Assembly: GCF_900105355.1 (NCBI RefSeq)
Contig: NZ_FNSC01000001.1
Span: forward strand, 62,001-126,000
Origin: Pseudomonas anguilliseptica
Lineage (GTDB): Bacteria > Pseudomonadota > Gammaproteobacteria > Pseudomonadales > Pseudomonadaceae
Direction: 5' to 3'
Length of the DNA stretch: 64,000 nucleotides
The notes beneath the pieces were generated by a model, which saw nothing but the letters and a program-made list of their open reading frames with translations, was not told the DNA's origin and did not search any database. Position numbers and translations under genes: made by a program. Numbering within the stretch: position 1 is the stretch's first letter; the number at the start of each line of letters is the position of its first letter. Below, piece by piece: positions 13,887 through 60,816 of this stretch.

Positions 13887-15078
13887 GGATGGTCTGAAAA
13901 AGACTTCCTGATTTTGGCAAAATATCCGCACTCCACCCGCCGAGTTTTCCGATGAAGCAGATGACCTTCGCCGACGCCGAGTATGCCGGCAAGCGCAAGC
14001 AGACCCGCAAAGAATTGTTCCTGATCGAGATGGATCGGGTAGTGCCATGGAAAGGGTTGATCGCTTTGATCGAGCCGCATTATCCAAAGGGTGAAGGCGG
14101 CCGACCGTCCTATCCGCTGATGGCGATGCTGCGAGTGCATCTGATGCAAAACTGGTTCGGTTACAGCGATCCGGCGATGGAAGAGGCGCTGTACGAGACC
14201 ACCATCCTACGCCAGTTTGCCGGGCTGACTCTGGAGCGCATTCCTGACGAAACCACCATCCTCAACTTCCGCCGCTTGCTGGAAACACACGAACTGGCTG
14301 CCGGCATCCTGGCCGTGATCAATGGCTACCTGGGTGACCGTGGTTTGTCGCTGCGCCAAGGCACCATCGTCGATGCCACGCTGATCAACGCGCCGAGTTC
14401 AACCAAGAACAAGAACGGTAAGCGTGACCCTGAGATGCACTCAACCAAGAAAGGCAATCAGTATTACTTCGGCATGAAGGCGCACATCGGGGTGGATGAC
14501 GAGTCTGGCTTGGTGCACAGCGTGGTGGGTACTGCCGCCAACGTGGCGGATGTCACCCAGGTCGATAAGCTGCTGCACGGCGAGGAAAACATGGTGGGGG
14601 CCGATGCCGGATATACCGGTGTCGAGAAGCGCCCCGAGCATGAGGGCCGTCAAGTGATCTGGCAGGTTGCAGCACGGCGTAGCACTTACAAGAAACTCGG
14701 TAAGCGCAGCGCGCTGTACAAAGCCAAGCGCAAAATCGAGAAGGCCAAGGCCCAAGTGCGAGCCAAGGTCGAGCATCCGTTTCGGGTGATCAAGCGTCAG
14801 TTCGGTTATGTGAAGACGCGCTTCCGTGGCCTGGTCAAAAACACGGCGCAACTGGTGACTTTATTCGCGCTGTCAAATCTGTGGATGGCGCGCCGACATT
14901 TACTGACGAATGCAGGAGAGGTGCGCCCGTAATGCTGGAAATGGCTGCCGCGAGGTGCTCGCGGCGGCTAAAAACACAGAAATGAGCCGGTAATCTGATC
15001 GTTTTTGATCGATTTATCACTTTCGAAATCAGCAGAGGCTGACGTCAGCCAGAAATGCATGGCTACTTCAGAGGATCC
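13887..15078 (+). mobile_element. IS5-family insertion sequence, copy 2 (1192 bp)
   Basis: Same ends as copy 1, flanked by CTTG direct repeats (13883-13886 and 15079-15082). It lies between the divergent trxB and cysZ genes and breaks no reading frame. It may separate either gene from upstream regulatory DNA. Confidence 0.95.
13952..14932 (+). CDS. IS5-family transposase, copy 2
   Basis: Same 326-residue protein as copy 1 apart from Lys112 to Thr (LLETHELAAG). The DDE residues are intact, so it is probably functional unless position 112 matters. Confidence 0.95.
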   Translation: MKQMTFADAEYAGKRKQTRKELFLIEMDRVVPWKGLIALIEPHYPKGEGGRPSYPLMAMLRVHLMQNWFGYSDPAMEEALYETTILRQFAGLTLERIPDETTILNFRRLLETHELAAGILAVINGYLGDRGLSLRQGTIVDATLINAPSSTKNKNGKRDPEMHSTKKGNQYYFGMKAHIGVDDESGLVHSVVGTAANVADVTQVDKLLHGEENMVGADAGYTGVEKRPEHEGRQVIWQVAARRSTYKKLGKRSALYKAKRKIEKAKAQVRAKVEHPFRVIKRQFGYVKTRFRGLVKNTAQLVTLFALSNLWMARRHLLTNAGEVRP

Positions 15079-32749: not shown

Positions 32750-33930
32750 AAAAGACTTCCTGATTTTGGCAAAATATCCGCACTCCACCCGCCGAGTTTT
32801 CCGATGAAGCAGATGACCTTCGCCGACGCCGAGTACGCCGGCAAGCGCAAGCAGACCCGCAAAGAATTGTTCCTGATCGAGATGGATCGGGTAGTGCCAT
32901 GGAAAGGGTTGATCGCTTTGATCGAGCCGCATTATCCAAAGGGTGAAGGCGGCCGACCGTCCTATCCGCTGATGGCGATGCTGCGAGTGCATCTGATGCA
33001 AAACTGGTTCGGTTACAGCGATCCGGCGATGGAAGAGGCGCTGTACGAGACCACCATCCTACGCCAGTTTGCCGGGCTGACTCTGGAGCGCATTCCTGAC
33101 GAAACCACCATCCTCAACTTCCGCCGCTTGCTGGAAAAACACGAACTGGCTGCCGGCATCCTGGCCGTGATCAATGGCTACCTGGGTGACCGTGGTTTGT
33201 CGCTGCGCCAAGGCACCATCGTCGATGCCACGCTGATCAACGCGCCGAGTTCAACCAAGAACAAGAACGGTAAGCGTGACCCTGAGATGCACTCAACCAA
33301 GAAAGGCAATCAGTATTACTTCGGCATGAAGGCGCACATCGGGGTGGATGACGAGTCTGGCTTGGTGCACAGCGTGGTGGGTACTGCCGCCAACGTGGCG
33401 GATGTCACCCAGGTCGATAAGCTGCTGCACGGCGAGGAAAACATGGTGGGGGCCGATGCCGGATATACCGGTGTCGAGAAGCGCCCCGAGCATGAGGGCC
33501 GTCAAGTGATCTGGCAGGTTGCAGCACGGCGTAGCACTTACAAGAAACTCGGTAAGCGCAGCGCGCTGTACAAAGCCAAGCGCAAAATCGAGAAGGCCAA
33601 GGCCCAAGTGCGAGCCAAGGTCGAGCATCCGTTTCGGGTGATCAAGCGTCAGTTCGGTTATGTGAAGACGCGCTTCCGTGGCCTGGTCAAAAACACGGCG
33701 CAACTGGTGACTTTATTCGCGCTGTCAAATCTGTGGATGGCGCGCCGACATTTACTGACGAATGCAGGAGAGGTGCGCCCGTAATGCTGGAAATGGCTGC
33801 CGCGAGGTGCTCGCGGCGGCTAAAAACACAGAAATGAGCCGGTAATCTGATCGTTTTTGATCGATTTATCACTTTCGAAATCAGCAGAGGCTGACGTCAG
33901 CCAGAAATGCATAGCTACTTCAGAGGATCC
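32739..33930 (+). mobile_element. IS5-family insertion sequence, copy 3 (1192 bp)
   Basis: Same ends as copies 1 and 2, with CTAA direct repeats at 32735-32738 and 33931-33934. A few single-base differences from copy 1 are visible (GAGTAC for GAGTAT near the transposase start; ATGCATAG for ATGCATGG near the right end). Inserted in the last codons of the MATE gene. Confidence 0.95.
32804..33784 (+). CDS. IS5-family transposase, copy 3
   Basis: Identical in protein sequence to copy 1 (326 residues, D141/D218/E274 intact). Probably functional. Confidence 0.95.
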   Translation: MKQMTFADAEYAGKRKQTRKELFLIEMDRVVPWKGLIALIEPHYPKGEGGRPSYPLMAMLRVHLMQNWFGYSDPAMEEALYETTILRQFAGLTLERIPDETTILNFRRLLEKHELAAGILAVINGYLGDRGLSLRQGTIVDATLINAPSSTKNKNGKRDPEMHSTKKGNQYYFGMKAHIGVDDESGLVHSVVGTAANVADVTQVDKLLHGEENMVGADAGYTGVEKRPEHEGRQVIWQVAARRSTYKKLGKRSALYKAKRKIEKAKAQVRAKVEHPFRVIKRQFGYVKTRFRGLVKNTAQLVTLFALSNLWMARRHLLTNAGEVRP

Positions 33931-45322: not shown

Positions 45323-45691
45323 CCCCAGCCCCTTCTCAGCCTTGACGTCCGGCCATTAAGCCGAATCGGGGCGCGATTCTGTCGAGCAATGCCGTATATG
45401 GCAAATCGCGGCGACCAGCGCTCAGTGCCCGATCCGAGCCATTGAAGCAGGGAAGCATAAATAACGAAACTTACGTTATGGGCTGTTCACGACCCGTAGC
45501 GGCCACTGGCGAATGGCAAATACCGGCCAGAAGCGGACGGTCAGGCCCGCAGTGTGTCGCGATAGCCGGTCGCAGCGGCCTTGGCACTGGCTTTAGCGGA
45601 CACCACGACGCACTTGGCTTCATCCGGAAATACTTGCTAAGCCCATGTCACCGAGTGCGGCGAAGTTTGCGCATATAACGCCAGCTGGCCT
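45323..45691. other. 369-bp intergenic region, no gene seen
   Basis: I find no supported reading frame. It contains GGCCAGAAGCGGAC (about 45529-45542), the reverse complement of GTCCGCTTCTGGCC, the same short motif that appears at 47662 and, with changes, at 52780. The region looks like decayed sequence between the TrmK-like and NmrA-like genes. Confidence 0.5.
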
Positions 45692-46574
45692 TTATTGCTG
45701 ACGCTGTACCAGTTCGCCGATAACTCGTTCGAGCGGAGTTGTTCCTACCCATTCGACCGCGCGGGGATCGCTCTTGATGTCGATATGCGAGCAATTGAGG
45801 CCACGGGTCATTTCGGTGAATCCAGCAAGGGCGGCCTTTGAGAAATGGGCATCCGCCAGCGCTTCTGGCCACTCAGTTTCCGGCAGAACTGCAACGTCGA
45901 CAGGCTTCTCGAGCGTGGCTGAAACAATGGCAGCGACATCGTTCGGGGCATAGTCTTTGGGCCCCGCGAGAGTGACGGCGCAGGTCCCCGTCCTTTTTTC
46001 TTGCAGCAAAGCAGCTGCAGCACTACCGACATCCACAGTCGCCACCATCGGGAGAAGACGCTGCGGTGGTGCCAGAAACGTCGGCAGAGTGCCGCTGCGC
46101 ATGGCCTGCCCGACCATCGGCATCCAGTTCTCCATGAAATAGGCCGCGCGCAGGAAGACGGTGGACACTCCGGCATCGGTCAAACGCTGCTCGAACATGC
46201 GGTTCATCCTGATCCACCCTGTTCCGCTTTCACGGTCGGCACCCACCGAGGAAAGGGCCACAAGTCTGGGCACGTCCGCCGCAATTGCGGCGCGCGCCGT
46301 GATCTCGGCAATCAACTCTGCTCTCTCGAACAGGTCTTCACGGCTGTAGTGTTGCGGGCTGACGACATAGGCGCCTTGGACCTGACTGAGTGCCTGGGTC
46401 ATTGCGGCCAGATCAGTCAGGTCGGCCACGGCAACTTCTGCGCCACGTTCGGCCCAAGTCGCGCACCACGACGCGCACAGGCTGGCCGGAGCGCAAGAGA
46501 GCATCAGCGGTTGCGGCGCCGGTACGGCCGGACACGCCGAATACAGCATAAGGAAGGGGGGAATAAGCAGTCAT
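45692..46574 (-). pseudogene. NmrA/NAD(P)-binding family protein with a frameshift
   Basis: The N-terminus (from ATG 46574) reads YAVFGVSGRTGAATADALLR and VRVVVRD, a GxxGxxG cofactor loop, and then runs off frame at about 46458. The remainder, WAERGAEVAVADLTDLAAM to GTTPLERVIGELVQ, continues in the next frame. Relatives have a few residues between VRD and the W/ARGAEV segment, so a small deletion of 3n-1 bases is the simplest explanation. Intact it would be about 295 residues, an SDR-type quinone or NADPH sensor/reductase. Divergent from a LysR gene. Confidence 0.8.
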
Positions 46575-46653
46575 ACAACATCTCCTGTTTAGATGAACCA
46601 GGATGGTGGATGATTGCGCGACGTACATAAATGATATGGAAGTTATAGCTAAC

Positions 46654-47574
46654 ATGCGTCAAGTGGATTTATCTAGGGTCGACCTCAATCTGTTAAAGCT
46701 GTTCGAAGCACTCGTTCGGGAGCGAAGTGTTACGCAGGCGGGCCTCCGCCTGGGCTTGAGCCAACCGGCCGCCAGCCGCGCTCTGGGGCGATTGCGCACG
46801 ATGCTGGGTGATCGCCTGGTGGTTCGCGGCAAGCTCGGGCTGGAACTGACGCCACGCGGCGAAATGCTGGCAGCTCCAGTGGCTAAACTGCTGGACGATG
46901 CCAGAGGCATCGTCTCGCCTGCCGTCTTCGACCCTGCCTCTGCAACGGGTCGAATCACGATTGCCGCGCACGACCATCTGAGCCTGACGGTCCTTGCTGG
47001 TTTAATCGCCCGTTTCGAGCGCCATGCGCCGGCGCTAAGTCTCCATATCGCGCAACCTGTTGGGGATAACGTGCGGCTTGTCGAACAGGGGGACGTAGAT
47101 CTAGCACTGGGTATTTTCGAGACACTACCCGGCAGTCTCCATCGACGCCGCCTTTACGCTGATAGCTTGGTGTGCGTAGTGAGGTCCGATCACCCCTATG
47201 TAACAGACGGACTCAGCCTGGAGCGTTATGTGACCTTGCGCCACATCACCGTGACCATTTCCGGAGTGGGAGAGAGCGCGGTCGAAGTCGCGCTCTCGAC
47301 GCTGGGGCTCACTCGCCAAGTCGCGCTGCGAGTTCCCCACTTTCTTGCTGGTGCGATGCTGGTGGCGGACAGCGACATGATTCTCACGTTGCCCAGCCGT
47401 TTGGCGCGCCTGCTTGCGAAAAGGCTCCCACTTGCGCTCCTAGATCTGCCGCTAAAGGTTGCGCCCCTGTCACCAGCCATGATCTGGAATGAACGCTTTC
47501 ACGGCGACCCCGCCCATGTTTGGGTCAGGCAACAGCTTGTCGACGTCGTCGCATCGTTCAATACGGCCGGATAA
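46654..47574 (+). CDS. LysR-family transcriptional regulator
   Basis: About 306 residues: MRQVDLSRVDLNLLKLFEAL opens the helix-turn-helix (VTQAGLRLGLSQPAASRALGRLR), and the effector domain has ASATGRITIAAHDHLSLTVLAGL. ATG 46654 is preferred because GGAAG lies 10 bp upstream; ATG 46636 is also in frame. It is divergent from the NmrA-like pseudogene. The 3' side is 130 bp from the IS1182-family element. Confidence 0.87.
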   Translation: MRQVDLSRVDLNLLKLFEALVRERSVTQAGLRLGLSQPAASRALGRLRTMLGDRLVVRGKLGLELTPRGEMLAAPVAKLLDDARGIVSPAVFDPASATGRITIAAHDHLSLTVLAGLIARFERHAPALSLHIAQPVGDNVRLVEQGDVDLALGIFETLPGSLHRRRLYADSLVCVVRSDHPYVTDGLSLERYVTLRHITVTISGVGESAVEVALSTLGLTRQVALRVPHFLAGAMLVADSDMILTLPSRLARLLAKRLPLALLDLPLKVAPLSPAMIWNERFHGDPAHVWVRQQLVDVVASFNTAG

Positions 47575-47706
47575 ATGCCGCCGCCCTCGATCTATAAAAT
47601 GGTGATTCCCCAAATTATTATTAGTCTCGGATCCTTAATATTCTCAGCGGCTGTCTCAGGATGTCCGCTTCTGGCCGCGAGTTGCCCGTCGCAACAGGCT
47701 GGAGTC

Positions 47707-49349
47707 GGCCCAGGCTGTGTAAAAACGTTGGCATCGACCTTGCTGTGATTTGATGGATTCAAATCAGCGGGGGATGCCGATGAAGCGTTTTATCCAAGGA
47801 GAGCATCGAGGCCAAAGCGCGCTGCTTCCCGAGAGCCTGGATGACTACGTGGCGGACACCAACCCGGTGCGGGTGGTCGATGTTTTCGTCGATGAACTCG
47901 ACCTTGTCCAGCTGGGTTTCGACGGTGTCGTCCCGGCGGAAACAGGTCGGCCCGCCTACCATCCTGCCGATCTCCTGAAGATCTATATCTACGGTTACCT
48001 CAACCGCATCCAGTCCAGTCGCCGTCTCGAACGCGAGGCTCAGCGCAACGTTGAGTTGATGTGGCTGACCGGACGGTTGATGCCGGACTTCAAGACCATC
48101 GCCAACTTTCGCAAGGATAACGGCAAGGCAATCCGCGGTGTCTGTCGGCAGTTCGTGGTGCTGTGCCAGCAGCTTGGCCTGTTCTCTGAAGCGCTTGTGG
48201 CCATCGATGGCAGCAAGTTCAAGGCGGTCAACAACCGCGACCGCAACTTCACCAGTGCCAAGCTTCAGCGGCGAATGGAGGAAATCGAGTCCAGCATCAA
48301 CCGTTACCTGACTGCACTGGATACCGCTGATCGCCAGGAACCTGCCGTGGCGCAGGTCAAAGCAGAACGCCTCCACGAAAAGATCGCGACCTTGAAAACT
48401 AAGCTGAAGGAACTCAAGGAAATCGAAGTACAGCTCAACGAAACATCGGACAAACAGATCTCCCTGACCGATCCCGATGCCCGCTCAATGAAGACTCGTG
48501 GCACCGGCATGGTCGGCTACAACGTGCAGGCGGCGGTCGACGCGAAGCACCACCTGATCGTGACGCATGAGGTCACGAACGACGGAGTCGATCGAGACCA
48601 ACTGAGCGCCATGGCCAAACAGGCGCGAGAGGCCATGGGTGTTGAGAAGCTATCGGCGGTCGCAGACAGAGGGTATTTCAAAGGCGAAGAAATCCTTGCG
48701 TGCCATGAGGCTGGCATCACCGTTTTCGTACCCAAGACGCTGACCTCGGGAGCGACAGCGGCTGGCCGCTTCGGCAAAGGTGATTTCATCTATGACGCAG
48801 CCAAGAACGAGTACCGATGCCCGGCAGGGGAAAACCTGATCTGGCGGTACTCAAGCGTCGAGAAAGGACTGAAGTTGCACCGCTACTGGAGTTCGCACTG
48901 CCAGGGTTGTGCGCTGAAAGAGCACTGTACGCCGAGTCCACAGCGCCGGGTGAGCCGCTGGGAGCATGAGGCTGTACTTGAGGCGATGCAGACCCGCCTG
49001 GATCAAGCGCCCGAGATGATGCGGATCCGTCGCCAAACGGTCGAGCACCCATTTCCTCACCAGAACGCTCGACCGGGTGAGCACAGAGATGAGCCTGCAT
49101 GTGCTCGCCTACAACCTCAAGCGCGTGTTGAGCTTGCTGGGCAGCGGTGCCCTAATGGCCGCGATGAAGGCCTGAGACCTGTTTTACGAGTCCTGCCGTC
49201 CTCCAGCAGGCGCACCGAAGCCTAAAGTGCCACACAACCAGGAATCACCGAATACGCCTGATTGGTGCCTCCGGCGGCCTTCTGGACACTTAGAAAATCC
49301 CCCGGCAGTTGATTGCCATTGCTTGCTGCGTTTTTACACGGTCTGGGCC
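47707..49349 (+). mobile_element. IS1182-family insertion sequence, copy A (1643 bp)
   Basis: Ends GGCCCAGGCTGTGTAAAAAC at the left and GTTTTTACACGGTCTGGGCC at the right, nearly perfect 20-bp inverted repeats; the same ends bound copy B. No target duplication is evident. The 3' non-coding part (after 49225) is matched by copy B on both sides of its nested element. Carries one transposase gene with a shared lesion. Confidence 0.92.
47774..49225 (+). CDS. IS1182-family transposase, copy A, C-terminus altered by an internal deletion
   Basis: A DDE transposase: MKRFIQGEHRGQSALLPESL opens the DUF772-type domain; catalytic-type Asp residues lie in VAIDGSKFKAVNNRD and VADRGYFKGEE and the Glu in RRQTVEHP. 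After VEHP the usual FGTLKxWMGAT is missing and the frame changes; the lost frame can be read on as HFLTRTLDRVSTEMSLHVLA to a TGA at 49173. The protein instead ends in about 55 unrelated residues. The same lesion is in copy B. Probably inactive. An in-frame ATG at 47750 exists upstream. Confidence 0.88.
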   Translation: MPMKRFIQGEHRGQSALLPESLDDYVADTNPVRVVDVFVDELDLVQLGFDGVVPAETGRPAYHPADLLKIYIYGYLNRIQSSRRLEREAQRNVELMWLTGRLMPDFKTIANFRKDNGKAIRGVCRQFVVLCQQLGLFSEALVAIDGSKFKAVNNRDRNFTSAKLQRRMEEIESSINRYLTALDTADRQEPAVAQVKAERLHEKIATLKTKLKELKEIEVQLNETSDKQISLTDPDARSMKTRGTGMVGYNVQAAVDAKHHLIVTHEVTNDGVDRDQLSAMAKQAREAMGVEKLSAVADRGYFKGEEILACHEAGITVFVPKTLTSGATAAGRFGKGDFIYDAAKNEYRCPAGENLIWRYSSVEKGLKLHRYWSSHCQGCALKEHCTPSPQRRVSRWEHEAVLEAMQTRLDQAPEMMRIRRQTVEHPFPHQNARPGEHRDEPACARLQPQARVELAGQRCPNGRDEGLRPVLRVLPSSSRRTEA

Positions 49350-49431
49350 AATAGCGGCCATTCGGGTGTGTCTAGAAAATCGGGGGCGATTCAGACTGCG
49401 AGTGGCACCTGGTCTTGAGCTTGTGTGGTGC

Positions 49432-49689
49432 TCAATGGCAGCAGCAACCCCTACTTTTCGTCTTGATCGGCGTGGAGAAAGCTTCCTCGGCCGTTTTTGC
49501 GATAGGGGAGTATCCCGCTTTCACAATTGCATGGCTGAGTTCAGCTTCGGCGCTTACCGACTCAATCTGGACTCGGTGAGAAGATAGGTCTATTTGCACC
49601 TTGGCGGTTGGGTCCACGGTCAGTACAGCCTGGGTAATGGTTTTTATACAGTGTCCACAGGTCATGTCTTTTACTTCGAAGGTCGTCAT
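49432..49689 (-). CDS. heavy-metal-associated domain protein (CopZ-like copper chaperone)
   Basis: An 85-residue protein. FEVKDMTCGHCIKTITQAV has the metal-binding CxxC (MTCGHC) of the HMA fold, with VQIDLSSHRVQIE the second strand. A C-terminal tail (KTKSRGCCCH) adds three Cys and a His beyond the standard 65-70-residue CopZ, which may increase metal binding. A CueR-type promoter lies 45-68 bp upstream, so copper or another soft metal probably induces it. The cueR gene is not in the window. Confidence 0.88.
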   Translation of the reverse strand: MTTFEVKDMTCGHCIKTITQAVLTVDPTAKVQIDLSSHRVQIESVSAEAELSHAIVKAGYSPIAKTAEEAFSTPIKTKSRGCCCH

Positions 49690-49733
49690 CGCTCGCTCCT
49701 ACTAGGGGTGGTGTTTGATGATTCGACTTTCCT

Positions 49734-49757
49734 CCTTACCATCGTGGCAAGGTCAAG
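49734..49757 (-). promoter_or_regulatory. CueR-type MerR-family promoter of the CopZ-like gene
   Basis: On the reverse strand: TTGACCTTGCCACGATGGTAAGG, a -35 TTGACC running into the inverted repeat CCTTGCC-ACGAT-GGTAAGG. This is the classic layout of promoters activated by CueR/MerR-type sensors with an overlong spacer. It points at the CopZ-like gene. Confidence 0.8.
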
Positions 49758-49866
49758 CAAAAAACGCAGCGCCGTAATCTTTCTCATGAAAAGCAAAGCC
49801 AAGACCTGTTTCCGGCAGGTCAGTTGCACGATGGAACGGAACCCGGGAAGAAGAGGAATATGCTGA

Positions 49867-49903
49867 TTGTCACGTACAAGTAACGGCTCCTTACACGTGA
49901 CAA
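49867..49903. repeat. 9-bp inverted repeat TTGTCACGT ... ACGTGACAA
   Basis: Perfect arms at 49867-49875 and 49895-49903 separated by 19 bp, located 17 bp beyond the small lipoprotein stop. It could be a transcription end hairpin for the reverse-strand metal operon or a regulator site; there is no T tract. Confidence 0.5.
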
Positions 49904-49919
49904 CACAGCGCTTCAGTTC

Positions 49920-50051
49920 TTAGTCGTGAGAGTGGCCGTGGCTTTCGACTTCAGACTGGGTTTCCGGCTCACCGCCACCGCAGGCCGACAGCAGGCCAAG
50001 CAGACATACCAGCAGCAGGGAGCGACTCAGGGTAGTTGTGGTTTTCATCAT
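49920..50051 (-). CDS. 43-residue lipoprotein with His-rich tail
   Basis: MMKTTTTLSRSLLLVCLLGL is a lipoprotein signal, and LLSACGGG the lipobox (Cys lipidated). The mature peptide is only about 20 residues, GGGEPETQSEVESHGHSHD, ending with a HGHSHD metal-binding-type tail. It is the last gene of the reverse-strand set after the membrane-anchored protein (66 bp downstream), so probably part of the same metal-related operon. Start at 50051 or 50048. Confidence 0.7.
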   Translation of the reverse strand: MMKTTTTLSRSLLLVCLLGLLSACGGGEPETQSEVESHGHSHD

Positions 50052-50117
50052 GTAATCCTTTCTGTTTCGATCAGGGATGTAGAAGCCCCAGCGCCTGATG
50101 ACGCAGGGGCTTTTGCC

Positions 50118-50780
50118 TTAGATAACGCGTTTGACGCTCAGGTACTCGCCCTTGGTCTTGAGCGTGATGGTCACGTCTTGGTTGCTGCGGTTGCGCCAGA
50201 ACCAGCCGTGGGTGCCGTCGAAGATGGCAGTGAACTCGCCTTTGTCTCCCGTGATCTGCTTGGCCTTGCTGTAGCTGTGGTAGTAGCCCTTGGGGCCGTT
50301 GTAGGGCTCGCCATGGGTGTCGTGGTTGACCGGCACACCATCGGTTGTCCACTCGTAGCTGACAGTGGCCTTGTCCAGCATCTCCAGTTTGATTTCACTG
50401 GCCTCGCCCGGCTTCAGCGTGACGGTCACTTCATCTGACTTCAGGGCTGGCTCAGGCTCAGCTACGGGTTCGGCCACAGGTGCTGCTGCAACAGGCTCTT
50501 GCACTACCGGCTGAACAGGCGCGGGAGCTTGAGCGACTGGAGCCGCAGCTGGCTGAACCGCTGCATCCGCAGCCGCTTCTTCGGCCAGGGTTTTCTTCAT
50601 TTCGCCCATCTGGGTCAGGCCGAGTAAGCGGCCAACGCCCGTTGGGTCGATGGCGTACTCCGAAGGCATCACCATGGTAACCAGCAAGGCAGCGGCAACA
50701 GCCACGGCGATTACGGTGGAGCGCAACAGTTGGCGGCTGGTAGGCAATTCGCTTTGGGTCGGGAGCTTGGTATTGAACAT
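50118..50780 (-). CDS. membrane-anchored periplasmic protein of the HupE-associated cassette
   Basis: A 220-residue protein. A single transmembrane helix lies at residues 22-40 (VIAVAVAAALLVTMVM). A Pro/Ala/Glu-rich spacer covers about 70-112. The C-terminal domain (113-220) is beta-rich: VTVTLKPGEASEIKLEML, HGEPYNGPKGYYHSYSKAK, and GTHGWFWRNRSNQDVTITLK, resembling a GOLD/emp24-like or carbohydrate-binding beta sandwich. The GYYHSYSKAK and HDTHG segments contain possible metal ligands. Homologues are generically called 'transmembrane anchor protein' next to HupE. Function unknown. Starts 12 bp after HupE. Confidence 0.7.
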   Translation of the reverse strand: MFNTKLPTQSELPTSRQLLRSTVIAVAVAAALLVTMVMPSEYAIDPTGVGRLLGLTQMGEMKKTLAEEAAADAAVQPAAAPVAQAPAPVQPVVQEPVAAAPVAEPVAEPEPALKSDEVTVTLKPGEASEIKLEMLDKATVSYEWTTDGVPVNHDTHGEPYNGPKGYYHSYSKAKQITGDKGEFTAIFDGTHGWFWRNRSNQDVTITLKTKGEYLSVKRVI

Positions 50781-50792
50781 GCTGAGAATTCC

Positions 50793-51527
50793 TTACTGAG
50801 AGACGATCAGGCCGGTGAGTTGGTAACCCATCAAGAGGAAACCGGCGCTCATCATGGCGACGTTGGCGGTGTAGGCATGGCGCCAGAAACTGGCGGTGCG
50901 TCGCCAGTAGCCCATGACGATCAGGATGGCGCTCAGGGCCAGGAGCTGGCCGATTTCCACGCCGACGTTGAAGGCGATCAGGTTGGTGATCAGGCCGTCT
51001 GCCGAGATCTCGTACTCCTGAATCTTGGTCGCCAGACCAAAGCCATGCAGCAAGCCAAAGATCAGCGTGGCCGCTTTGGTGTTCGGCTGGTGGCCGAACC
51101 AGCGCTGGAATGCGCCCAGGTTATCCAGCGCCTTGTACACCACCGAGAAACCGATGATGGCGTCGATCACGTAGGAGCTGATGTTGATTTCCGCCAGTAC
51201 GCCCAGCAGCAGCGTCACGGTGTGACCCACGGCGAACAGCGTGACGTAGAGCCCCACGTCCTTCAGGCGGTAGAGAAAGAAGATCACCCCGAAGAGGAAC
51301 AGCAGATGGTCGTAGCCGGTGATCATGTGCTTAGCGCCCATGTAGATAAACGGTAGCACCATCACCCCGGAGCTTTCCTGGATAAAGCCCTTGTCGCCCT
51401 CGGCAACAGCGTGGGCCAGTGCGTCAGGCATGCCGAGAAACAGCAGCGCCATAAACAACAGCAGCAGTAACGAGCGATTCGGGCGCACGAGAGATGCGTC
51501 TATTGCGCCCATAGATAGCGAATGCAT
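50793..51527 (-). CDS. HupE/UreJ-family membrane protein
   Basis: A 244-residue membrane protein with about six to seven hydrophobic segments and the HupE/UreJ histidine motifs: ITGYDHLLFLFGVIFFLYR, LFAVGHTVTLLLGV and FGLLHGFGLATKIQ. HupE/UreJ proteins are linked to nickel or cobalt uptake. Here the context is a His-rich periplasmic protein and a CsoR/RcnR-type regulator rather than urease or hydrogenase, so the ion is uncertain. Start 51527 (MHSLSMGAIDASL) chosen; a longer frame to 51563 exists. Confidence 0.85.
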   Translation of the reverse strand: MHSLSMGAIDASLVRPNRSLLLLLFMALLFLGMPDALAHAVAEGDKGFIQESSGVMVLPFIYMGAKHMITGYDHLLFLFGVIFFLYRLKDVGLYVTLFAVGHTVTLLLGVLAEINISSYVIDAIIGFSVVYKALDNLGAFQRWFGHQPNTKAATLIFGLLHGFGLATKIQEYEISADGLITNLIAFNVGVEIGQLLALSAILIVMGYWRRTASFWRHAYTANVAMMSAGFLLMGYQLTGLIVSQ

Positions 51528-51574
51528 GGTTGAGTCCTGAATTAAAGGGGTCTTGGGCCGCACAGCGGCCTGTG

Positions 51575-51934
51575 TCAGAGCACGAATGTGGCCCGCGGTG
51601 GCCGCTCGATCAGGAAGATCGGGCTTGGAGGAATGGAGTAGCGAGGGGCGAGTATCGGCTGCGCACGTTCTGGCAGCGTGCTAATGATCAGCAGCGCGGT
51701 CAGATGCGGTGTTTCATGCACATGGTCGGCGGTCAGCGGCGAGTGGCAGTGATCCCCGTATGCAGCACAGACCAGCGTCTCGTCATCATGCGCATGCGAA
51801 TGAGCGCCGTCACTGCCACCCACGGCAGGCTGCCTCGACCCCATAAACAGCGCAGAGGTATGCCCAGCCCAAGCCATCAATATGGCGAGAGCAAGGGCAA
51901 AAATCACCTTGGTGCTGATGGGATTGCTGAGCAT
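51575..51934 (-). CDS. His-rich periplasmic protein (CzcI/DUF2946-like layout)
   Basis: A 119-residue protein with an N-terminal hydrophobic signal (VIFALALAILMAWAGHTSAL) and a metal-ligand-rich centre GAHSHAHDDETLVCAAYGDHCHSPLTADHVHETPH (written in parts: nine His and two Cys within about 40 residues). The C-terminal PPRATFVL recalls the conserved end of DUF2946/CzcI-like proteins. First gene of the reverse-strand cassette, 47 bp before hupE, and divergent from the CsoR-type regulator across a palindromic operator. Confidence 0.7.
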   Translation of the reverse strand: MLSNPISTKVIFALALAILMAWAGHTSALFMGSRQPAVGGSDGAHSHAHDDETLVCAAYGDHCHSPLTADHVHETPHLTALLIISTLPERAQPILAPRYSIPPSPIFLIERPPRATFVL

Positions 51935-51991
51935 GTTGAGGTTCTTTCGATGCCTGAGCGGGTGGCTTTTCTGGAGGGGGCGGTTTGACCA

Positions 51992-52010
51992 TATCCCCCC
52001 TGGGGGGATA
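51992..52010. promoter_or_regulatory. CsoR/RcnR-type operator: perfect G-tract palindrome
   Basis: TATCCCCCC-T-GGGGGGATA, a perfect 9-1-9 palindrome midway between the divergent His-rich protein (start 51934) and the CsoR-type regulator (start 52050). G/C-tract sites flanked by A/T are the known recognition type of the CsoR/RcnR family, so the regulator most likely binds here and controls both directions. Confidence 0.8.
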
Positions 52011-52049
52011 GCATGCGAGCGTAATTCATCGACGCACGAGACTCAAGGC

Positions 52050-52337
52050 ATGAGCGATCACGAACACGGCCACCAGCACCAAAGTCATGGCGACATCATC
52101 AAAAGGTTGAAGCGTGCGGAGGGCCACCTGCGCAGCATCGTCACCATGATCGAAGACAGCCGTGCCTGCGTCGACATCGCTCAGCAGCTGCATGCCGTGG
52201 AAAAAGCCGTCTGCCAGGCCAAGCGTGTGCTTATCCAAGACCATATCGACCACTGCCTGGAACACACCGTCGAAGCACTTGCGATAGGCGAGCGCGCATC
52301 ACTCAAAGATTTCAAGCAAATCACCAAGTACCTCTGA
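52050..52337 (+). CDS. CsoR/RcnR-family metal-sensing repressor
   Basis: A 95-residue all-helical regulator: DIIKRLKRAEGHLRSIVTMI and DSRACVDIAQQLHAVEKAV. Metal ligands of the CsoR type can be placed at Cys40, His65 and Cys69 (DHIDHCLEH), plus a His-rich N-terminus (SDHEHGHQHQSHG, six His or Glu/His) as in nickel sensors such as InrS. The C-H-C set suits Cu(I) or Ni(II); FrmR or RcnR sets differ. When metal-bound it would release the G-tract operator just upstream. Confidence 0.88.
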   Translation: MSDHEHGHQHQSHGDIIKRLKRAEGHLRSIVTMIEDSRACVDIAQQLHAVEKAVCQAKRVLIQDHIDHCLEHTVEALAIGERASLKDFKQITKYL

Positions 52338-52370
52338 GGCGGTTCAACACTAACGGCGAGGAGATGCAGG

Positions 52371-52721
52371 ATGGCATGGCTAATCAGCAAATATTTCCTG
52401 ACCGCAGTCGTGGTGGTCGTGGTCTCGGAAGTCGCGAAGCGTAGCGACAAATTTGGTGGCCTGATTGCGGCGTTACCTCTGATCACCGTACTGACACTTA
52501 TCTGGCTAAACGTTGAAAACCAGCCAACAGAAAAGATCGCTAACCATGCGTGGTACACCTTCTGGTACGTGTTGCCCACCTTGCCGATGCTACTCGCATT
52601 TCCCATGTTTTTGCCCCGCTTCGGCTTCTGGCCAGCTTTGCTGATCTACATCGTCGCCACCGCAGCTTGTTTCGGTTTGTTTGCCTTATGTGTCCGCCGT
52701 TTTGGCATCGAACTGCTATAA
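52371..52721 (+). CDS. DUF3147 family membrane protein
   Basis: A 116-residue protein with four hydrophobic segments: residues 8-22, 30-48, 63-83 and 90-108. LTAVVVVVVSEVAKRSDKFGGLIAALPLIT is the characteristic DUF3147 start. Function unknown; the family often lies beside metal-resistance genes. Starts 33 bp after the CsoR-type gene, so it is probably co-transcribed and metal-regulated. Confidence 0.82.
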   Translation: MAWLISKYFLTAVVVVVVSEVAKRSDKFGGLIAALPLITVLTLIWLNVENQPTEKIANHAWYTFWYVLPTLPMLLAFPMFLPRFGFWPALLIYIVATAACFGLFALCVRRFGIELL

Positions 52722-52852
52722 GGCCAAGCAAGTAGCTCGCCCATTGTCTGCGTATGCGTTACATGGCATGTGGCGCTGTAATGTCTGCTTTTGGCCCAGA
52801 CCGTGTAAAAACGCAGCAAGCAATGGCAATCAACTGCCGGGGGATTTTCTAA

Positions 52853-54044
52853 GGATCCTCTGAAGTAGCCATGCATTTCTGGCTGACGTCAGCCTCTGCT
52901 GATTTCGAAAGTGATAAATCGATCAAAAACGATCAGATTACCGGCTCATTTCTGTGTTTTTAGCCGCCGCGAGCACCTCGCGGCAGCCATTTCCAGCATT
53001 ACGGGCGCACCTCTCCTGCATTCGTCAGTAAATGTCGGCGCGCCATCCACAGATTTGACAGCGCGAATAAAGTCACCAGTTGCGCCGTGTTTTTGACCAG
53101 GCCACGGAAGCGCGTCTTCACATAACCGAACTGACGCTTGATCACCCGAAACGGATGCTCGACCTTGGCTCGCACTTGGGCCTTGGCCTTCTCGATTTTG
53201 CGCTTGGCTTTGTACAGCGCGCTGCGCTTACCGAGTTTCTTGTAAGTGCTACGCCGTGCTGCAACCTGCCAGATCACTTGACGGCCCTCATGCTCGGGGC
53301 GCTTCTCGACACCGGTATATCCGGCATCGGCCCCCACCATGTTTTCCTCGCCGTGCAGCAGCTTATCGACCTGGGTGACATCCGCCACGTTGGCGGCAGT
53401 ACCCACCACGCTGTGCACCAAGCCAGACTCGTCATCCACCCCGATGTGCGCCTTCATGCCGAAGTAATACTGATTGCCTTTCTTGGTTGAGTGCATCTCA
53501 GGGTCACGCTTACCGTTCTTGTTCTTGGTTGAACTCGGCGCGTTGATCAGCGTGGCATCGACGATGGTGCCTTGGCGCAGCGACAAACCACGGTCACCCA
53601 GGTAGCCATTGATCACGGCCAGGATGCCGGCAGCCAGTTCGTGTTTTTCCAGCAAGCGGCGGAAGTTGAGGATGGTGGTTTCGTCAGGAATGCGCTCCAG
53701 AGTCAGCCCGGCAAACTGGCGTAGGATGGTGGTCTCGTACAGCGCCTCTTCCATCGCCGGATCGCTGTAACCGAACCAGTTTTGCATCAGATGCACTCGC
53801 AGCATCGCCATCAGCGGATAGGACGGTCGGCCGCCTTCACCCTTTGGATAATGCGGCTCGATCAAAGCGATCAACCCTTTCCATGGCACTACCCGATCCA
53901 TCTCGATCAGGAACAATTCTTTGCGGGTCTGCTTGCGCTTGCCGGCATACTCGGCGTCGGCGAAGGTCATCTGCTTCATCGGAAAACTCGGCGGGTGGAG
54001 TGCGGATATTTTGCCAAAATCAGGAAGTCTTTTTCAGACCATCC
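52853..54044 (-). mobile_element. IS5-family insertion sequence, copy 4, nested in IS1182 copy B (1192 bp)
   Basis: Same ends as copies 1-3, with CTAA direct repeats at 52849-52852 and 54045-54048. The flanks match copy A's 3' non-coding region, where the uninterrupted CTTAGAAAATCC text is seen at about 49287-49298. It is therefore younger than copy B. Confidence 0.95.
52999..53979 (-). CDS. IS5-family transposase, copy 4
   Basis: Same 326-residue protein as copies 1 and 3; DDE residues intact. Reverse orientation. Confidence 0.95.
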   Translation of the reverse strand: MKQMTFADAEYAGKRKQTRKELFLIEMDRVVPWKGLIALIEPHYPKGEGGRPSYPLMAMLRVHLMQNWFGYSDPAMEEALYETTILRQFAGLTLERIPDETTILNFRRLLEKHELAAGILAVINGYLGDRGLSLRQGTIVDATLINAPSSTKNKNGKRDPEMHSTKKGNQYYFGMKAHIGVDDESGLVHSVVGTAANVADVTQVDKLLHGEENMVGADAGYTGVEKRPEHEGRQVIWQVAARRSTYKKLGKRSALYKAKRKIEKAKAQVRAKVEHPFRVIKRQFGYVKTRFRGLVKNTAQLVTLFALSNLWMARRHLLTNAGEVRP

Positions 54045-54112
54045 CTAAGTGTCCAGAAGGCCGCCGGAGGCACCAATCAGGCGTATTCGGTGATTCCTGG
54101 TTGTGTGGCACT

Positions 54113-55564
54113 TTAGGCTTCGGTGCGCCTGCTGGAGGACGGCAGGACTCGTAAAACAGGTCTCAGGCCTTCATCGCTGCCATTAGGGCACCGCTGCCCA
54201 GCAAGCTCAACACGCGCTTGAGGTTGTAGGCGAGCACATGCAGGCCCATCTCTGTGCTCACCCGGTCGAGCGTTCTGGTGAGGAAATGGGTGCTCGACCG
54301 TTTGGCGACGGATCCGCATCATCTCGGGAGCTTGATCCAGGCGGGTCTGCATCGCCTCAAGTACAGCCTCATGCTCCCAGCGGCTCACCCGGCGCTGTGG
54401 ACTCGGCGTACAGTGCTCTTTCAGCGCACAACCCTGGCAGTGCGAACTCCAGTAGCGGTGCAACTTCAGTCCTTTCTCGACGCTTGAGTACCGCCAGATC
54501 AGGTTTTCCCCTGCCGGGCATCGGTACTCGTTCTTGGCTGCGTCATAGATGAAATCACCTTTGCCGAAGCGGCCAGCCGCTGTCGCTCCCGAGGTCAGCG
54601 TCTTGGGTACGAAAACGGTGATGCCAGCCTCATGGCACGCAAGGGTTTCTTCGCCTTTGAAATACCCTCTGTCTGCGACCGCCGATAGCTTCTCAACACC
54701 CATGGCCTCTCGCGCCTGTTTGGCCATGGCGCTCAGTTGGTCTCGATCGACTCCGTCGTTCGTGACCTCATGCGTCACGATCAGGTGGTGCTTCGCGTCG
54801 ACCGCCGCCTGCACGTTGTAGCCGACCATGCCGGTGCCACGAGTCTTCATTGAGCGGGCATCGGGATCGGTCAGGGAGATCTGTTTGTCCGATGTTTCGT
54901 TGAGCTGTACTTCGATTTCCTTGAGTTCCTTCAGCTTAGTTTTCAAGGTCGCGATCTTTTCGTGGAGGCGTTCTGCTTTGACCTGCGCCACGGCAGGTTC
55001 CTGGCGATCAGCGGTATCCAGTGCAGTCAGGTAACGGTTGATGCTGGACTCGATTTCCTCCATTCGCCGCTGAAGCTTGGCACTGGTGAAGTTGCGGTCG
55101 CGGTTGTTGACCGCCTTGAACTTGCTGCCATCGATGGCCACAAGCGCTTCAGAGAACAGGCCAAGCTGCTGGCACAGCACCACGAACTGCCGACAGACAC
55201 CGCGGATTGCCTTGCCGTTATCCTTGCGAAAGTTGGCGATGGTCTTGAAGTCCGGCATCAACCGTCCGGTCAGCCACATCAACTCAACGTTGCGCTGAGC
55301 CTCGCGTTCGAGACGGCGACTGGACTGGATGCGGTTGAGGTAACCGTAGATATAGATCTTCAGGAGATCGGCAGGATGGTAGGCGGGCCGACCTGTTTCC
55401 GCCGGGACGACACCGTCGAAACCCAGCTGGACAAGGTCGAGTTCATCGACGAAAACATCGACCACCCGCACCGGGTTGGTGTCCGCCACGTAGTCATCCA
55501 GGCTCTCGGGAAGCAGCGCGCTTTGGCCTCGATGCTCTCCTTGGATAAAACGCTTCATCGGCAT
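54113..55564 (-). CDS. IS1182-family transposase, copy B, same internal deletion as copy A
   Basis: Near-identical to copy A, with differences such as GEETLACHEAG (copy A GEEILACHEAG) and HRDGPACARL (copy A HRDEPACARL). It carries the same loss after VEHP and the same unrelated C-terminal tail, so the deletion predates the duplication. Probably not active by itself. The upstream in-frame ATG is at 55588. Confidence 0.88.
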   Translation of the reverse strand: MPMKRFIQGEHRGQSALLPESLDDYVADTNPVRVVDVFVDELDLVQLGFDGVVPAETGRPAYHPADLLKIYIYGYLNRIQSSRRLEREAQRNVELMWLTGRLMPDFKTIANFRKDNGKAIRGVCRQFVVLCQQLGLFSEALVAIDGSKFKAVNNRDRNFTSAKLQRRMEEIESSINRYLTALDTADRQEPAVAQVKAERLHEKIATLKTKLKELKEIEVQLNETSDKQISLTDPDARSMKTRGTGMVGYNVQAAVDAKHHLIVTHEVTNDGVDRDQLSAMAKQAREAMGVEKLSAVADRGYFKGEETLACHEAGITVFVPKTLTSGATAAGRFGKGDFIYDAAKNEYRCPAGENLIWRYSSVEKGLKLHRYWSSHCQGCALKEHCTPSPQRRVSRWEHEAVLEAMQTRLDQAPEMMRIRRQTVEHPFPHQNARPGEHRDGPACARLQPQARVELAGQRCPNGSDEGLRPVLRVLPSSSRRTEA

Positions 55565-55729
55565 CCCCCGCTGATTTGAATCCATCAAATCACAGCAAGG
55601 TCGATGCCAACGTTTTTACACAGCCTGGGCCGTTTTCTGCCAGTCAATCGGTACAGCCTACTGGTCTGGACCAATGCAACTGACTGGTCAGTTGGGTGCA
55701 ATTACGCACAGACTTCAAAACGGCAAATG

Positions 55730-55750
55730 CGTTTTTACACAGCCTGGGCC
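55730..55750. repeat. orphan copy of the IS1182 terminal repeat
   Basis: CGTTTTTACACAGCCTGGGCC is identical in all 21 positions to the end of copy B at 55611-55631, 98 bp away, with the same orientation and the same GTT just outside. No transposase remains beside it, so it may be the relic of another element or part of the original target. Confidence 0.75.
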
Positions 55751-55844
55751 GTTACCGGTACGTGAGAAGGGCCGCACTCCAGACTGTCTGCCGACGCCCG
55801 ATTTATGGGTAAGCTAGCCCGCATACCAGCCAAGTGGGTGATCC

Positions 55845-56467
55845 ATGATCCTCTTTCTCGACGTGGACGGCGTTCTTCACCCCTTGCTTGCTCACAAGAG
55901 CAAGCCTATGTCCTGTCTGCCAAGGCTAGCCGCTGTCCTGTGGGACTTCCCCGAGGTGCAGGTAGTCATTACATCCACATGGCGACTCACGCGCAGCCTG
56001 GAAGACCTCCGTGCCCTATTTCCTGCTGATCTACGCAGTCGAGTTATCGGCGCAACAGCTGCACCAGGCTATGAGCCGCGCCCAGGTGCGCGGCAATATG
56101 AGGCCGTGCTTTGGCTTGATGGTTACGATCCTGCATCGCAATGGATTGCCCTTGACGACTACGCCCCCACTATTTTTCGTCATCTCGATTGGTGCTATGC
56201 GATAACACGACAGGTTTCGGCGAAGACGAAGAAAAGCAGTTGCGTGAGCGTCTGGTACATATTCGCCAGTTCGGTAACTGGGCTGATTACCAGGCGCGGG
56301 TCATCGCTTTTTTCGGCGCAGCAGACACAGCTGTCCACTGGTTGAACAAGCCCATGGCCCAGTTCAAAGGTGCATCCCTGCGCGACCTTTATGACACTGG
56401 ACGCCTACAGGAGCTGGATGATCTGCTAATCCGCGCGCATCACCATGACTGCAACTCGCTAACGTAG
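55845..56467 (+). pseudogene. HAD-like hydrolase with a frameshift, C-terminal end fused to a DUF2384-like segment
   Basis: The first frame begins MILFLDVDGVLHPLLAHKSK with the DxD nucleophile (LDVDG) and continues to QWIALDDYAPTIFRHLDW. HAD relatives then read LVLCDxxTGF; here that text (VLCDNTTGFGEDEEKQLRER) is in the next frame from about 56189. A 4-base loss of CTGG from TGGCTGGTGCTA would explain it. The second frame runs to 56467 and ends TAVHWLNKPMAQFKGAS, LRDLYDTGRLQELDDLL, which looks like the MbcA/ParS/Xre toxin-binding domain (DUF2384). Whether this is one fused gene or two is unclear. Confidence 0.65.
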
Positions 56468-56620
56468 CTGGTTTGTTCGCCTAAAATGAGCAACCTAAAA
56501 ACAGGCGTGTAAAGACCAGTCTTGGCCAGCAAGCAGCATCCCAGCCAGCTAATTGACATGGGAACCACTCCAGTGCCCCTCAGTGCCCGTTCATTGAACT
56601 GATGAATCGTGAATCGTCCG

Positions 56621-57826: not shown

Positions 57827-59018
57827 GGAAACCCTGAAGAAGACTTCCTGAATTTGGCAAAATACCTGAACTCCACCCGCCGAGTTTTCCGATGAAGCAG
57901 ATGACCTTCGCCGACGCCGAGTACGCCGGCAAGCGCAAGCAAACCCGCAAAGAGCTGTTCCTGATCGAGATGGATCAGGTTGTGCCGTGGAAGGGTTTGA
58001 TTGCCTTGATCGAACCGCATTACCCCAAGGGTGAAGGCGGACGTCCAGCCTATCCGCTGATGGCGATGTTACGGGTTCATTTGATGCAGAACTGGTTCGG
58101 CTACAGCGACCCGGCGATGGAGGAGGCTCTGTACGAGACCACCATCCTGCGCCAGTTTGCGGGTCTGAGCCTGGAGCGCATTCCCGACGAAACCACCATC
58201 CTCAACTTCCGCCGATTGCTGGAGAAACACGAACTGGCTGCGGGCATCTTGGCCGTCATCAATGGCTATTTGGGTGACCGCGGTTTGTCATTGCGCCAAG
58301 GCACCATCGTCGATGCCACGCTGATCAATGCGCCGAGTTCGACCAAGAACAAGGACGGTAAGCGTGACCCGGAAATGCACCAGACCAAGAAGGGAAACCA
58401 GTATTACTTCGGCATGAAGGCGCACATCGGCGTCGATGACGAGTCGGGTTTAGTGCATAGCGTGATCGGCACGGCAGCCAATGTTGCAGACGTTACTCAG
58501 GTCGACAAGCTGCTACACGGCAAAGAAAACATGGTGGGTGCCGACGCGGGTTACACCGGCGTAGAGAAGCGGCCAGAACATGAAGGCCGTGAAGTGATCT
58601 GGCAGATCGCAGCCCGCCGCAGTACGTACAACACGTTGAGTAAGCGCAGCGCGCTGTACAAAGCCAAGCGCAAGATCGAGAAGGCCAAGGCGCAAGTTCG
58701 CGCCAAGGTCGAGCACCCGTTCCGGGTGATCAAGCGTCAGTTCGGTTATGTGAAGACGCGTTTCCGTGGCCTGGCCAAAAACACCGCACAACTGGTAACG
58801 CTGTTCGCCCTGTCGAACCTGTGGATGGCCCGTCGACATTTGCTGACGAATGCAGGAGAGGTGCGCCTGTAATGTGGGAAATGACCGCTGCGAGGTGCTC
58901 GCGGCGGCCAGAAACACCGAAATGAGCGGATGACTTGATCGTTTTTGATCAGTTTTCCGCTTTCAAAATCAGCGGAGGCTGAAGTTGACCGGAAATACAG
59001 GGCTACTTCAGACCATCC
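57827..59018 (+). mobile_element. IS5-family insertion sequence, copy 5 (1192 bp, diverged type)
   Basis: Ends GGAAACCCTGAAGAAGAC and GGCTACTTCAGACCATCC, with CTAG direct repeats at 57823-57826 and 59019-59022. Many synonymous differences from copies 1-4 and a different left end (GGAAACCC rather than GGATGGTC), so a related but older element. Confidence 0.93.
57892..58872 (+). CDS. IS5-family transposase, copy 5
   Basis: A 326-residue relative of the copy 1 protein, with about a dozen or more substitutions (for example MDQVVPW, GGRPAYPLM, KDGKRDPEMHQ, RRSTYNTLSKRS). D141, D218 and E274 are kept. Confidence 0.93.
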   Translation: MKQMTFADAEYAGKRKQTRKELFLIEMDQVVPWKGLIALIEPHYPKGEGGRPAYPLMAMLRVHLMQNWFGYSDPAMEEALYETTILRQFAGLSLERIPDETTILNFRRLLEKHELAAGILAVINGYLGDRGLSLRQGTIVDATLINAPSSTKNKDGKRDPEMHQTKKGNQYYFGMKAHIGVDDESGLVHSVIGTAANVADVTQVDKLLHGKENMVGADAGYTGVEKRPEHEGREVIWQIAARRSTYNTLSKRSALYKAKRKIEKAKAQVRAKVEHPFRVIKRQFGYVKTRFRGLAKNTAQLVTLFALSNLWMARRHLLTNAGEVRL

Positions 59019-59625: not shown

Positions 59626-60816
59626 GGAAACTCTGAATAAGACTTCCTGATTTTGGCAAAATGCCCGGACGCCACCCGCCGAGTTTTCCGATGAAGCAAA
59701 TGACCTTCGCCGATGCCGAGTACGCCGGCAAACGCAAGCAGACCCGCAAAGAGTTGTTCCTGATCGAGATGGATCGGGTGGTGCCGTGGAAGGGTTTGAT
59801 CGCACTGATCGAACCGTATTACCCCAAGGGTGAAGGCGGTCGGCCGGCCTATCCGCTGATGGCGATGCTACGTGTGCACCTGATGCAGAACTGGTTCGGC
59901 TACAGCGACCCGGCGATGGAAGAAGCGCTGTACGAGACCACCATCCTGCGGCAGTTCGCCGGGCTGAGTCTGGAACGTATCCCCGACGAAACCACCATCC
60001 TCAACTTCCGTCGTCTGCTGGAGAAACATGAGTTGGCTGCCGGCATCCTGGCCGTCATCAATGGCTATCTTGGCGACCGTGGCCTGTCGTTGCGCCAAGG
60101 CACCATCGTCGATGCCACGCTGATCAATGCGCCGAGTTCGACCAAGAACAAGGACGGCAAACGCGACCCAGAGATGCACCAGGCCAAGAAGGGCAACCAA
60201 TACTACTTCGGCATGAAGGCGCACATTGGCGTGGATGACGAGTCGGGGCTGGTACACAGCGTGGTAGGCACGGCGGCCAACGTGGCGGATGTCACTCAGG
60301 TCGACAAGTTGCTGCACGGCGAGGAAAACGTGGTGTGCGCCGATGCGGGTTATACCGGCGTCGAAAAGCGCCCCGAACATGATGGGCGCGAGGTGATCTG
60401 GCAGGTTGCTGCCCGCCGCAGCACCTATAAGAAGCTGGGTAAGAGCAGCCCGCTGTACAAAGCCAAACGCAAGATCGAGAAGGCCAAGGCCCAGGTGCGC
60501 GCCAAGGTTGAGCACCCGTTCCGGGTGATCAAGCGTCAGTTCAGTTATGTAAAGACACGCTTCCGTGGCTTGGCCAAGAACACGGCGCAACTGGTGACGC
60601 TGTTCGCGCTGTCGAACCTGTGGATGGCACGCCGACATTTACTGACCAATGCAGGAGAGGTGCGCCTGTAATGCGGGAAATGGCTGCCGCGAGCTACTCG
60701 CGGCGGCTAAAAACACAGAAATGAATGGGTAATCTGATCGTTTTTGATCGATTTGCCGCTTTCAAAATCGGCGGGGCTGAAGTCAGCCAGAAATACATGG
60801 CTACTTCAGACCATCC
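59626..60816 (+). mobile_element. IS5-family insertion sequence, copy 6 (1191 bp, diverged type)
   Basis: Ends GGAAACTCTGAATAAGAC and GGCTACTTCAGACCATCC, with CTAT direct repeats at 59622-59625 and 60817-60820. Closer to copy 5 in its left end but distinct from it at many positions. Confidence 0.93.
59691..60671 (+). CDS. IS5-family transposase, copy 6
   Basis: A 326-residue transposase starting at MKQMTFADAEYAGKRKQTRK; an in-frame extension to 59661 is not conserved in the other copies. Differences from copy 1 include PYYPKGEGGRPAY, NVVCADAGYTG and LGKSSPLYKAK. DDE residues intact. Confidence 0.93.
   Translation: MKQMTFADAEYAGKRKQTRKELFLIEMDRVVPWKGLIALIEPYYPKGEGGRPAYPLMAMLRVHLMQNWFGYSDPAMEEALYETTILRQFAGLSLERIPDETTILNFRRLLEKHELAAGILAVINGYLGDRGLSLRQGTIVDATLINAPSSTKNKDGKRDPEMHQAKKGNQYYFGMKAHIGVDDESGLVHSVVGTAANVADVTQVDKLLHGEENVVCADAGYTGVEKRPEHDGREVIWQVAARRSTYKKLGKSSPLYKAKRKIEKAKAQVRAKVEHPFRVIKRQFSYVKTRFRGLAKNTAQLVTLFALSNLWMARRHLLTNAGEVRL

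Follow-up and report, generated by a model that had tools for sequence, protein, structure and literature searches.

A widespread gene module that pairs a HupE-type permease with a GOLD-like anchor protein beside a metal-sensing repressor, and its possible role in metal detoxification

What does a HupE-type permease do in a gene set that is apparently switched on by excess metal? The question is raised by a stretch of 64,000 nucleotides from Pseudomonas anguilliseptica (contig NZ_FNSC01000001.1, positions 62,001 to 126,000; hereafter the window), in which the genes for a His-rich protein, HupE, a membrane-anchored protein (the anchor) and a small lipoprotein follow one another in the order of transcription on the minus strand. 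Divergent from them lies mreA, which encodes a CsoR-type repressor. Here we find that the HupE, anchor, His-rich and repressor genes are a widespread module, for which detoxification is more likely than metal feeding, export being ahead of import by a narrow distance. The features of this gene set are:

49920-50051, minus strand: lipoprotein gene, a short lipobox protein of 43 amino acids with HxH, product ending ESHGHSHD
50118-50780, minus strand: anchor protein gene, encoding a transmembrane helix, a linker and a GOLD-like beta domain (residues 112-219)
50793-51527, minus strand: hupE, a HupE_UreJ_2 permease (PF13795); ATG start, open reading frame readable from 51563
51575-51934, minus strand: His-rich protein gene (named hisR here), at a conserved position; product probably periplasmic
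51992-52010, unstranded: operator palindrome TATCCCCCCTGGGGGGATA in the divergent promoter region between hisR and mreA
52050-52337, plus strand: mreA, a metal-sensing repressor of the CsoR/RcnR family (PF02583, 77.4 bits against a cut-off of 22.8)

To explore how far this arrangement is conserved, public genomes were scanned with the anchor protein, and the best 80 of 139 confirmed loci were kept, 73 of them with Pseudomonas or Stutzerimonas titles. Such a scan retains close relatives, so that conservation is measured inside a related set. In 68 of the 80 loci there was enough room around the anchor gene (more than 2.5 kb upstream and 200 bases downstream), and 67 of these showed the expected layout with hupE, the His-rich gene and mreA; the exception (L107) contained only the end of the anchor gene. 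Across all 80 loci hupE was found in 77, the His-rich gene in 72 and mreA in 72. A lipoprotein-type protein (32-48 residues, lipobox, HxH) followed the anchor in 50 of the 80, the lipoprotein starts being uncertain in some of them. The initial annotation of this DNA had made co-occurrence of HupE, anchor, lipoprotein and His-rich protein in other genomes the test of its proposal, a test that these counts pass. Similarly, 149 genomes of the window's genus gave anchor matches in 25 genomes at 27 places, of which a weak 21-bit match in G076 was dropped. Among the remaining 26 (>250 bits), 25 adjoin a HupE match of more than 130 bits and, conversely, 25 of 27 HupE matches above 130 bits have an anchor alongside; the exceptions are a partial anchor (G093) and two genomes with HupE alone (G021, G131). 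The anchor-less genes of the latter two (G021:C102:1586-2035 and G131:C13:12844-13293) are strong HupE_UreJ_2 matches with long open frames and perhaps represent another subfamily. The module is also common on plasmids, where 72,556 records yielded 391 anchor matches and 461 HupE matches.

HupE of the window belongs to the HupE_UreJ_2 family (PF13795, 188.2 bits against a cut-off of 24.5) and gave no match to the classical family PF04955 at E <= 0.01; a relative in which HupE is fused to the anchor domain scored 19.1 against the PF04955 cut-off of 23. Its motif HMITGYDH keeps the H, G, D and H of the classical HupE/UreJ signature HPxxGxDH (PMC7689651; papers are cited here from the sections consulted), with Met in place of Pro. 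Among full-length HupE relatives HxxxGYDH is kept in 75 of 75, and each of four HupE motifs is conserved in 74-75 of the 75. By sequence no solved relative of HupE was found at E <= 1, and the best match of the anchor in the PDB reached only E 0.19. Residues 112-219 of the anchor form a GOLD-type beta sandwich in an AlphaFold2 model (VIA-align), a domain with no recognisable sequence family in Pfam at E <= 0.01. Because a fused protein was found in 10 of 20 regions opened in other gammaproteobacteria, with HupE and the GOLD-like domain as separate neighbours in 8, HupE and the anchor very likely work as one unit. Relatives of the fused protein carry both the HupE motif and the anchor-domain motif in 119 of 120 among the matches listed, and the periplasmic domain occurs twice in 5 of these 120 (P0123, P0134, P0135, P0137 and P0161). 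A GOLD-like domain was also seen as a separate secreted-looking protein adjoining a gene for a PepSY-like membrane protein (L183, 8108-8422), perhaps a second use of the domain.

The operator region is conserved along with the genes. The palindrome is the sole match to TATCCCCCN{1,4}GGGGGATA in the 5.2 Mb genome, and the pattern TATCCCCC-N(1-4)-GGGGGATA likewise has one occurrence in that genome. We compared 73 stretches between the His-rich gene and mreA (the window and the 72 loci in which both genes were found): a loose pattern of the C-tract/G-tract palindrome is present in 68, the remaining 5 carry a slightly changed version, and 66 of the 73 have the stricter form TATCCCC to GGGG[AT]T. 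Together with the PF02583 match, these findings bear out the earlier prediction of a CsoR-type repressor with its operator, which MreA would be expected to repress. MreA of the window is identical to that of pWW0 at 91 of 95 residues, and pWW0 MreA is annotated as 100% identical to the reference MreA. The nearest solved structure by sequence is 5fmn, named INRS, and in the alignment the His-rich start, Cys, His and Cys of MreA fall in the same columns, positions that we take to be metal ligands in InrS. InrS is a nickel sensor. For the MreA of P. putida (there called CsoR) the sections consulted give Kd values of 5.5 µM for Cu, 125 µM for Ni and 253 µM for Zn, whereas Co, Cd and Mg were not seen to bind; copper is the main metal that releases it from copA-I promoter DNA, Ni, Zn and Cd having a weak effect, and induction of the csoR/mreA gene by Cd, Ni, Zn and Co is cited in the same paper (PMC11978298). 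A search of 45500-56500 against Rfam at the gathering score found no RNA element.

At E <= 0.01 the anchor, lipoprotein and His-rich protein have no match in Pfam, and the two small proteins were followed by their own motifs. The ending HGH[SA]H[DE] is found in 49 of the 50 locus lipoproteins, the other (L051) ending HGHSDD, and in 28 of 30 relatives found in a protein database at E <= 1. Of the 30 loci that fail the lipoprotein rule, three (L055, L094 and L122) carry an altered form; in another three, all from one strain (L074, L075 and L118), the His-tailed protein is longer and lacks the Cys of the lipobox. In the others none was seen by eye within 900 bases. A plasmid search with the 43-residue protein returned a single partial match, the short query limiting the search. 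The protein is 'hypothetical' in an Aeromonas record, and no gene is annotated for it in the closest P. aeruginosa plasmid. An alignment of the His-rich protein (18 rows, those from other genera being very diverged and chosen by position) has DHxHE in 15 rows and a C-terminal PPR in 16. Small proteins of two plasmid modules described below (L191, L195) are likewise His-rich, with RPPR-type C-terminal motifs. Assignment of the window protein to DUF2946 was rejected for want of a Pfam match; the product of a His-rich gene two genes ahead of a fused hupE scored 23.3 against the DUF2946 cut-off of 23.7 and was compared with the window group by alignment only. A periplasmic hand-over of metal beside the HupE permease would fit with the conservation of the His tails and with the fusion of HupE to the anchor domain.

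For the genomic company of the pair we opened 20 plasmid records, picked by eye from the listings and hence not random, of which 17 are annotated and carry the pair (L002-L004, L006, L126-L134, L191 and L193-L195). The other three were left out because hupE is truncated in L005, L135 encodes a different HupE of greater length and L192 lacks gene annotation. The anchor was verified by blastp in L003, L193 and L194, where it is annotated as hypothetical only, and in L131, L191 and L195. All 17 stretches contain a gene for metal efflux, metal resistance or metal sensing, and the company of the pair includes nickel, resistance-nodulation-division (RND) and cation diffusion facilitator (CDF) efflux genes. 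A metal-sensing repressor lies inside the cluster in L002, L003, L004, L006, L128, L132, L134, L191 and L195; in L127, L130, L131 and L194 the pair, or the His-rich gene belonging to it, directly follows a CzcA-type RND gene; and ncrABC lies near the pair in L126. L191 and L195 are bare modules: the stretches retrieved contain the genes for the repressor, the His-rich protein, HupE and the anchor, and none annotated as a metal exporter. The surroundings of mreA vary among the 68 loci with room, with matches to mrdH within 3.5 kb in 41, to a YqaA-like gene within 4.5 kb in 41, to DUF3147 within 3.5 kb in 10 and to an NreB-like major facilitator superfamily (MFS) gene within 10 kb in 26. In 29 of the 80 loci the chromate transporter ChrA has a match within 10 kb, and chrA also lies near the pair on several plasmids. 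The window's own genome has a CzcA-like RND match of 32% identity with one internal TAG stop (G000:C1:3072108-3075200, L187).

Around this core lie further features, framed by two insertion sequences (IS):

47707-49351, plus strand: IS1182-family element, copy 1 (NF033551, 425 bits)
49432-49689, minus strand: copZ-like gene for a heavy-metal-associated (HMA) protein (PF00403, 42.5 bits), judged a neighbour outside the module
49734-49752, minus strand: CueR-like box CCTTGCCACGATGGTAAGG upstream of copZ (pattern match)
52371-52721, plus strand: gene for a small membrane protein, DUF3147 (PRK09272 family match), following mreA in a slot often occupied by mrdH
52791-55631, minus strand: IS1182-family element, copy 2, in pieces 55631-54045 and 52853-52791 with an IS5-family element at about 52853-54044 between them

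All genes claimed by the initial annotation are present, although they number seven between the IS1182 copies and not six; the name DUF3147 is taken from the annotation of a homologue. The initial annotation also listed a CueR-type promoter as one of two kinds of metal-responsive control. The box exists, but its count was reached in 5 of 100 shuffles, a modest statistical support, and box and copZ both lie outside the module, beyond a gap that follows the lipoprotein gene. As a module member copZ was rejected: only 2 of the 68 loci have a copZ match within 10 kb, both at 34% identity, and plasmid DNA gave no match to 49352-49900, the best plasmid match spanning window 49854-52770 only. Elsewhere in the same genome a CueR match over the cut-off and another HMA protein lie about 3 kb apart (G000:C1:832762-832941 and 835732-836109); the copZ of the window is thus a second HMA copy, only 38% identical to the other. 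Two inverted IS1182 copies do enclose the gene set, as had been proposed, but as boundaries they are incidental to the module, and the frame looks particular to this strain. The outer flanks of the pair share no word longer than 5 bases, no outer repeat was seen, and the reading as a composite transposon moving as a unit was set aside as unsupported. Some IS1182-family members leave no target-site duplication. A third copy, 98% identical, lies at G000:C1:1343803-1345482, and the IS5-family element within copy 2 has CTAA on both sides. Six IS5-type transposase genes with starts alike are spread over the window (4063-5043, 13952-14932, 32804-33784, 52999-53979, 57892-58872 and 59661-60671; the fourth alone was compared with families), which suggests a recent expansion within 64 kb.

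With moderate confidence, we propose that these genes form a mobile metal-response module for detoxification, in which a metal-derepressed inner-membrane HupE-anchor unit is served by periplasmic His-rich helpers. MreA would sit on the operator between the two divergent transcripts and be released when a surplus of metal binds to it, be it Ni, Co, Zn, Cd or Cu; this would derepress the four genes from that of the His-rich protein, through hupE and the anchor gene, to that of the lipoprotein. HupE would supply the pore and the anchor a GOLD-like domain on the periplasmic face. HupE may then move metal from the cytoplasm to the periplasm, where the His-rich protein and the HGHSH lipoprotein would bind it or pass it on, and the metal would be held by these proteins or removed by an RND pump. 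The direction of transport, the metal and the relay are what we infer from this arrangement. Export is favoured because the repressor is of a metal-excess family, the pair keeps company with efflux genes and continues RND operons, bare modules exist, and the window's own genome has no match to MrdH or an NreB-like MFS protein, in a search that had no positive control. A bolder form of the proposal, which we offer tentatively, is that HupE with a GOLD-like periplasmic domain, split or fused, represents an undescribed class of inner-membrane metal exporters that deliver metal to periplasmic HGHSH peptides and also to CzcA-type pumps wherever these occur.

Several observations weigh against the main proposal. 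The model of the fused protein (mean predicted local distance difference test score, pLDDT, 66.8) is too poor for use, and contact between its domains is not readable from it. Copper is the best-bound metal of MreA, a poor fit to nickel; deletion of csoR/mreA in KT2440 changed the tested copper genes only about 1.3-fold and left copper growth unaltered, and MreA's own operator is missing from the targets named in the section consulted (PMC11978298). HupE might import even under excess, as controlled uptake with storage on the His-rich proteins or as supply of metalloenzymes, a reading that we consider doubtful yet deserving of attention. The characterised HupE/UreJ proteins take up Ni or Co, according to the review sections consulted; an Nramp gene adjoins the module in Shinella (L191); and the authors of the Sphingobium study, who found a HupE-like permease induced by excess nickel counterintuitive, preferred accumulation (PMC5557971). 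Import sits poorly with the conserved place of the pair beside a CsoR-type repressor, near efflux genes and at the end of RND operons, and with the membership of HupE in PF13795 and not PF04955.

It is less likely still that HupE and the anchor are no transporter at all and serve as a periplasmic metal-sensing or accessory unit tuning another exporter. GOLD domains elsewhere mediate protein contacts, and in 59 of the 68 loci a further exporter gene (a match to mrdH, MFS or dmeF) lies no more than 10 kb away, so that HupE may be an accessory; such a role is at odds with the bare modules and the invariant HxxxGYDH motif. A single copper cassette that comprises every gene between the IS1182 copies, copZ among them, and moves as a composite transposon seems very improbable. 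The CueR-like box and HMA chaperone inside the frame and the copper preference of P. putida MreA (PMC11978298) would agree with it; the rarity of copZ near the module, the missing outer target repeat, the limits of the best plasmid match and the occurrence of module relatives in the opened loci without this IS1182-copZ junction do not. Overall, a two-part unit is defined by the fusion, by the operator region held in common and by the bare modules, and on this unit it can be decided which way the metal moves.

How does the module relate to known systems? The initial annotation could match the combination to no described system, a statement that has to be revised, since the mrdH-mreA locus has this repressor and this His-rich gene and the HupE/anchor pair occurs beside nickel, RND and CDF efflux genes. 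HupE, MreA, the His-rich gene and nickel induction of a HupE/UreJ-like gene are already known; no description of the pair, the fusion or the lipoprotein was seen in the literature listings and passages searched, from which subscription journals were mostly absent. Classical HupE/UreJ Ni/Co permeases share the HxxxGxDH motif and the broad family with the window protein, which differs in its PF13795 membership, the Met for Pro, the GOLD-like partner and the place beside a metal-excess repressor. In ncrABC(Y), the repressor NcrB is of the CsoR family with Cys/His positions as in MreA, and ncrABC lies about 5 kb from a HupE/anchor pair on a Klebsiella plasmid; NcrC, in contrast, belongs to the NiCoT-type family PF03824 and not to HupE. 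NcrA is MFS-like, again not HupE. A further known system is the nickel cluster of Sphingobium sp. ba1 (IL54_0273-0283), with a HupE/UreJ-domain protein, a CsoR-family repressor, a His-rich protein and strong nickel induction, the HupE/UreJ-domain gene being the most up-regulated gene under nickel; it differs in containing an RND pump and NreB (PMC5557971).

The mrdH-mreA locus of P. putida pWW0 shares with the window, in a single match of 90%, the near-identical repressor, the operator region and the His-rich gene. This match ends inside hupE, of which the first 26-27 codons are kept, and in the 16.9 kb stretch read neither the remainder of hupE nor the anchor and lipoprotein genes gave a match. 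It does contain mrdH, whereas in the window mreA is followed by the DUF3147 gene. The KT2440 locus, recorded as flanked by Tn4652 and IS1246 (PMC3056050), is the one used in the mrdH study, and we infer that this copy is cut as in pWW0. Judged by these alignments, the pWW0/KT2440 locus looks like a shortened module that has lost HupE, anchor and lipoprotein; if so, studies of that locus have overlooked half of the gene set.

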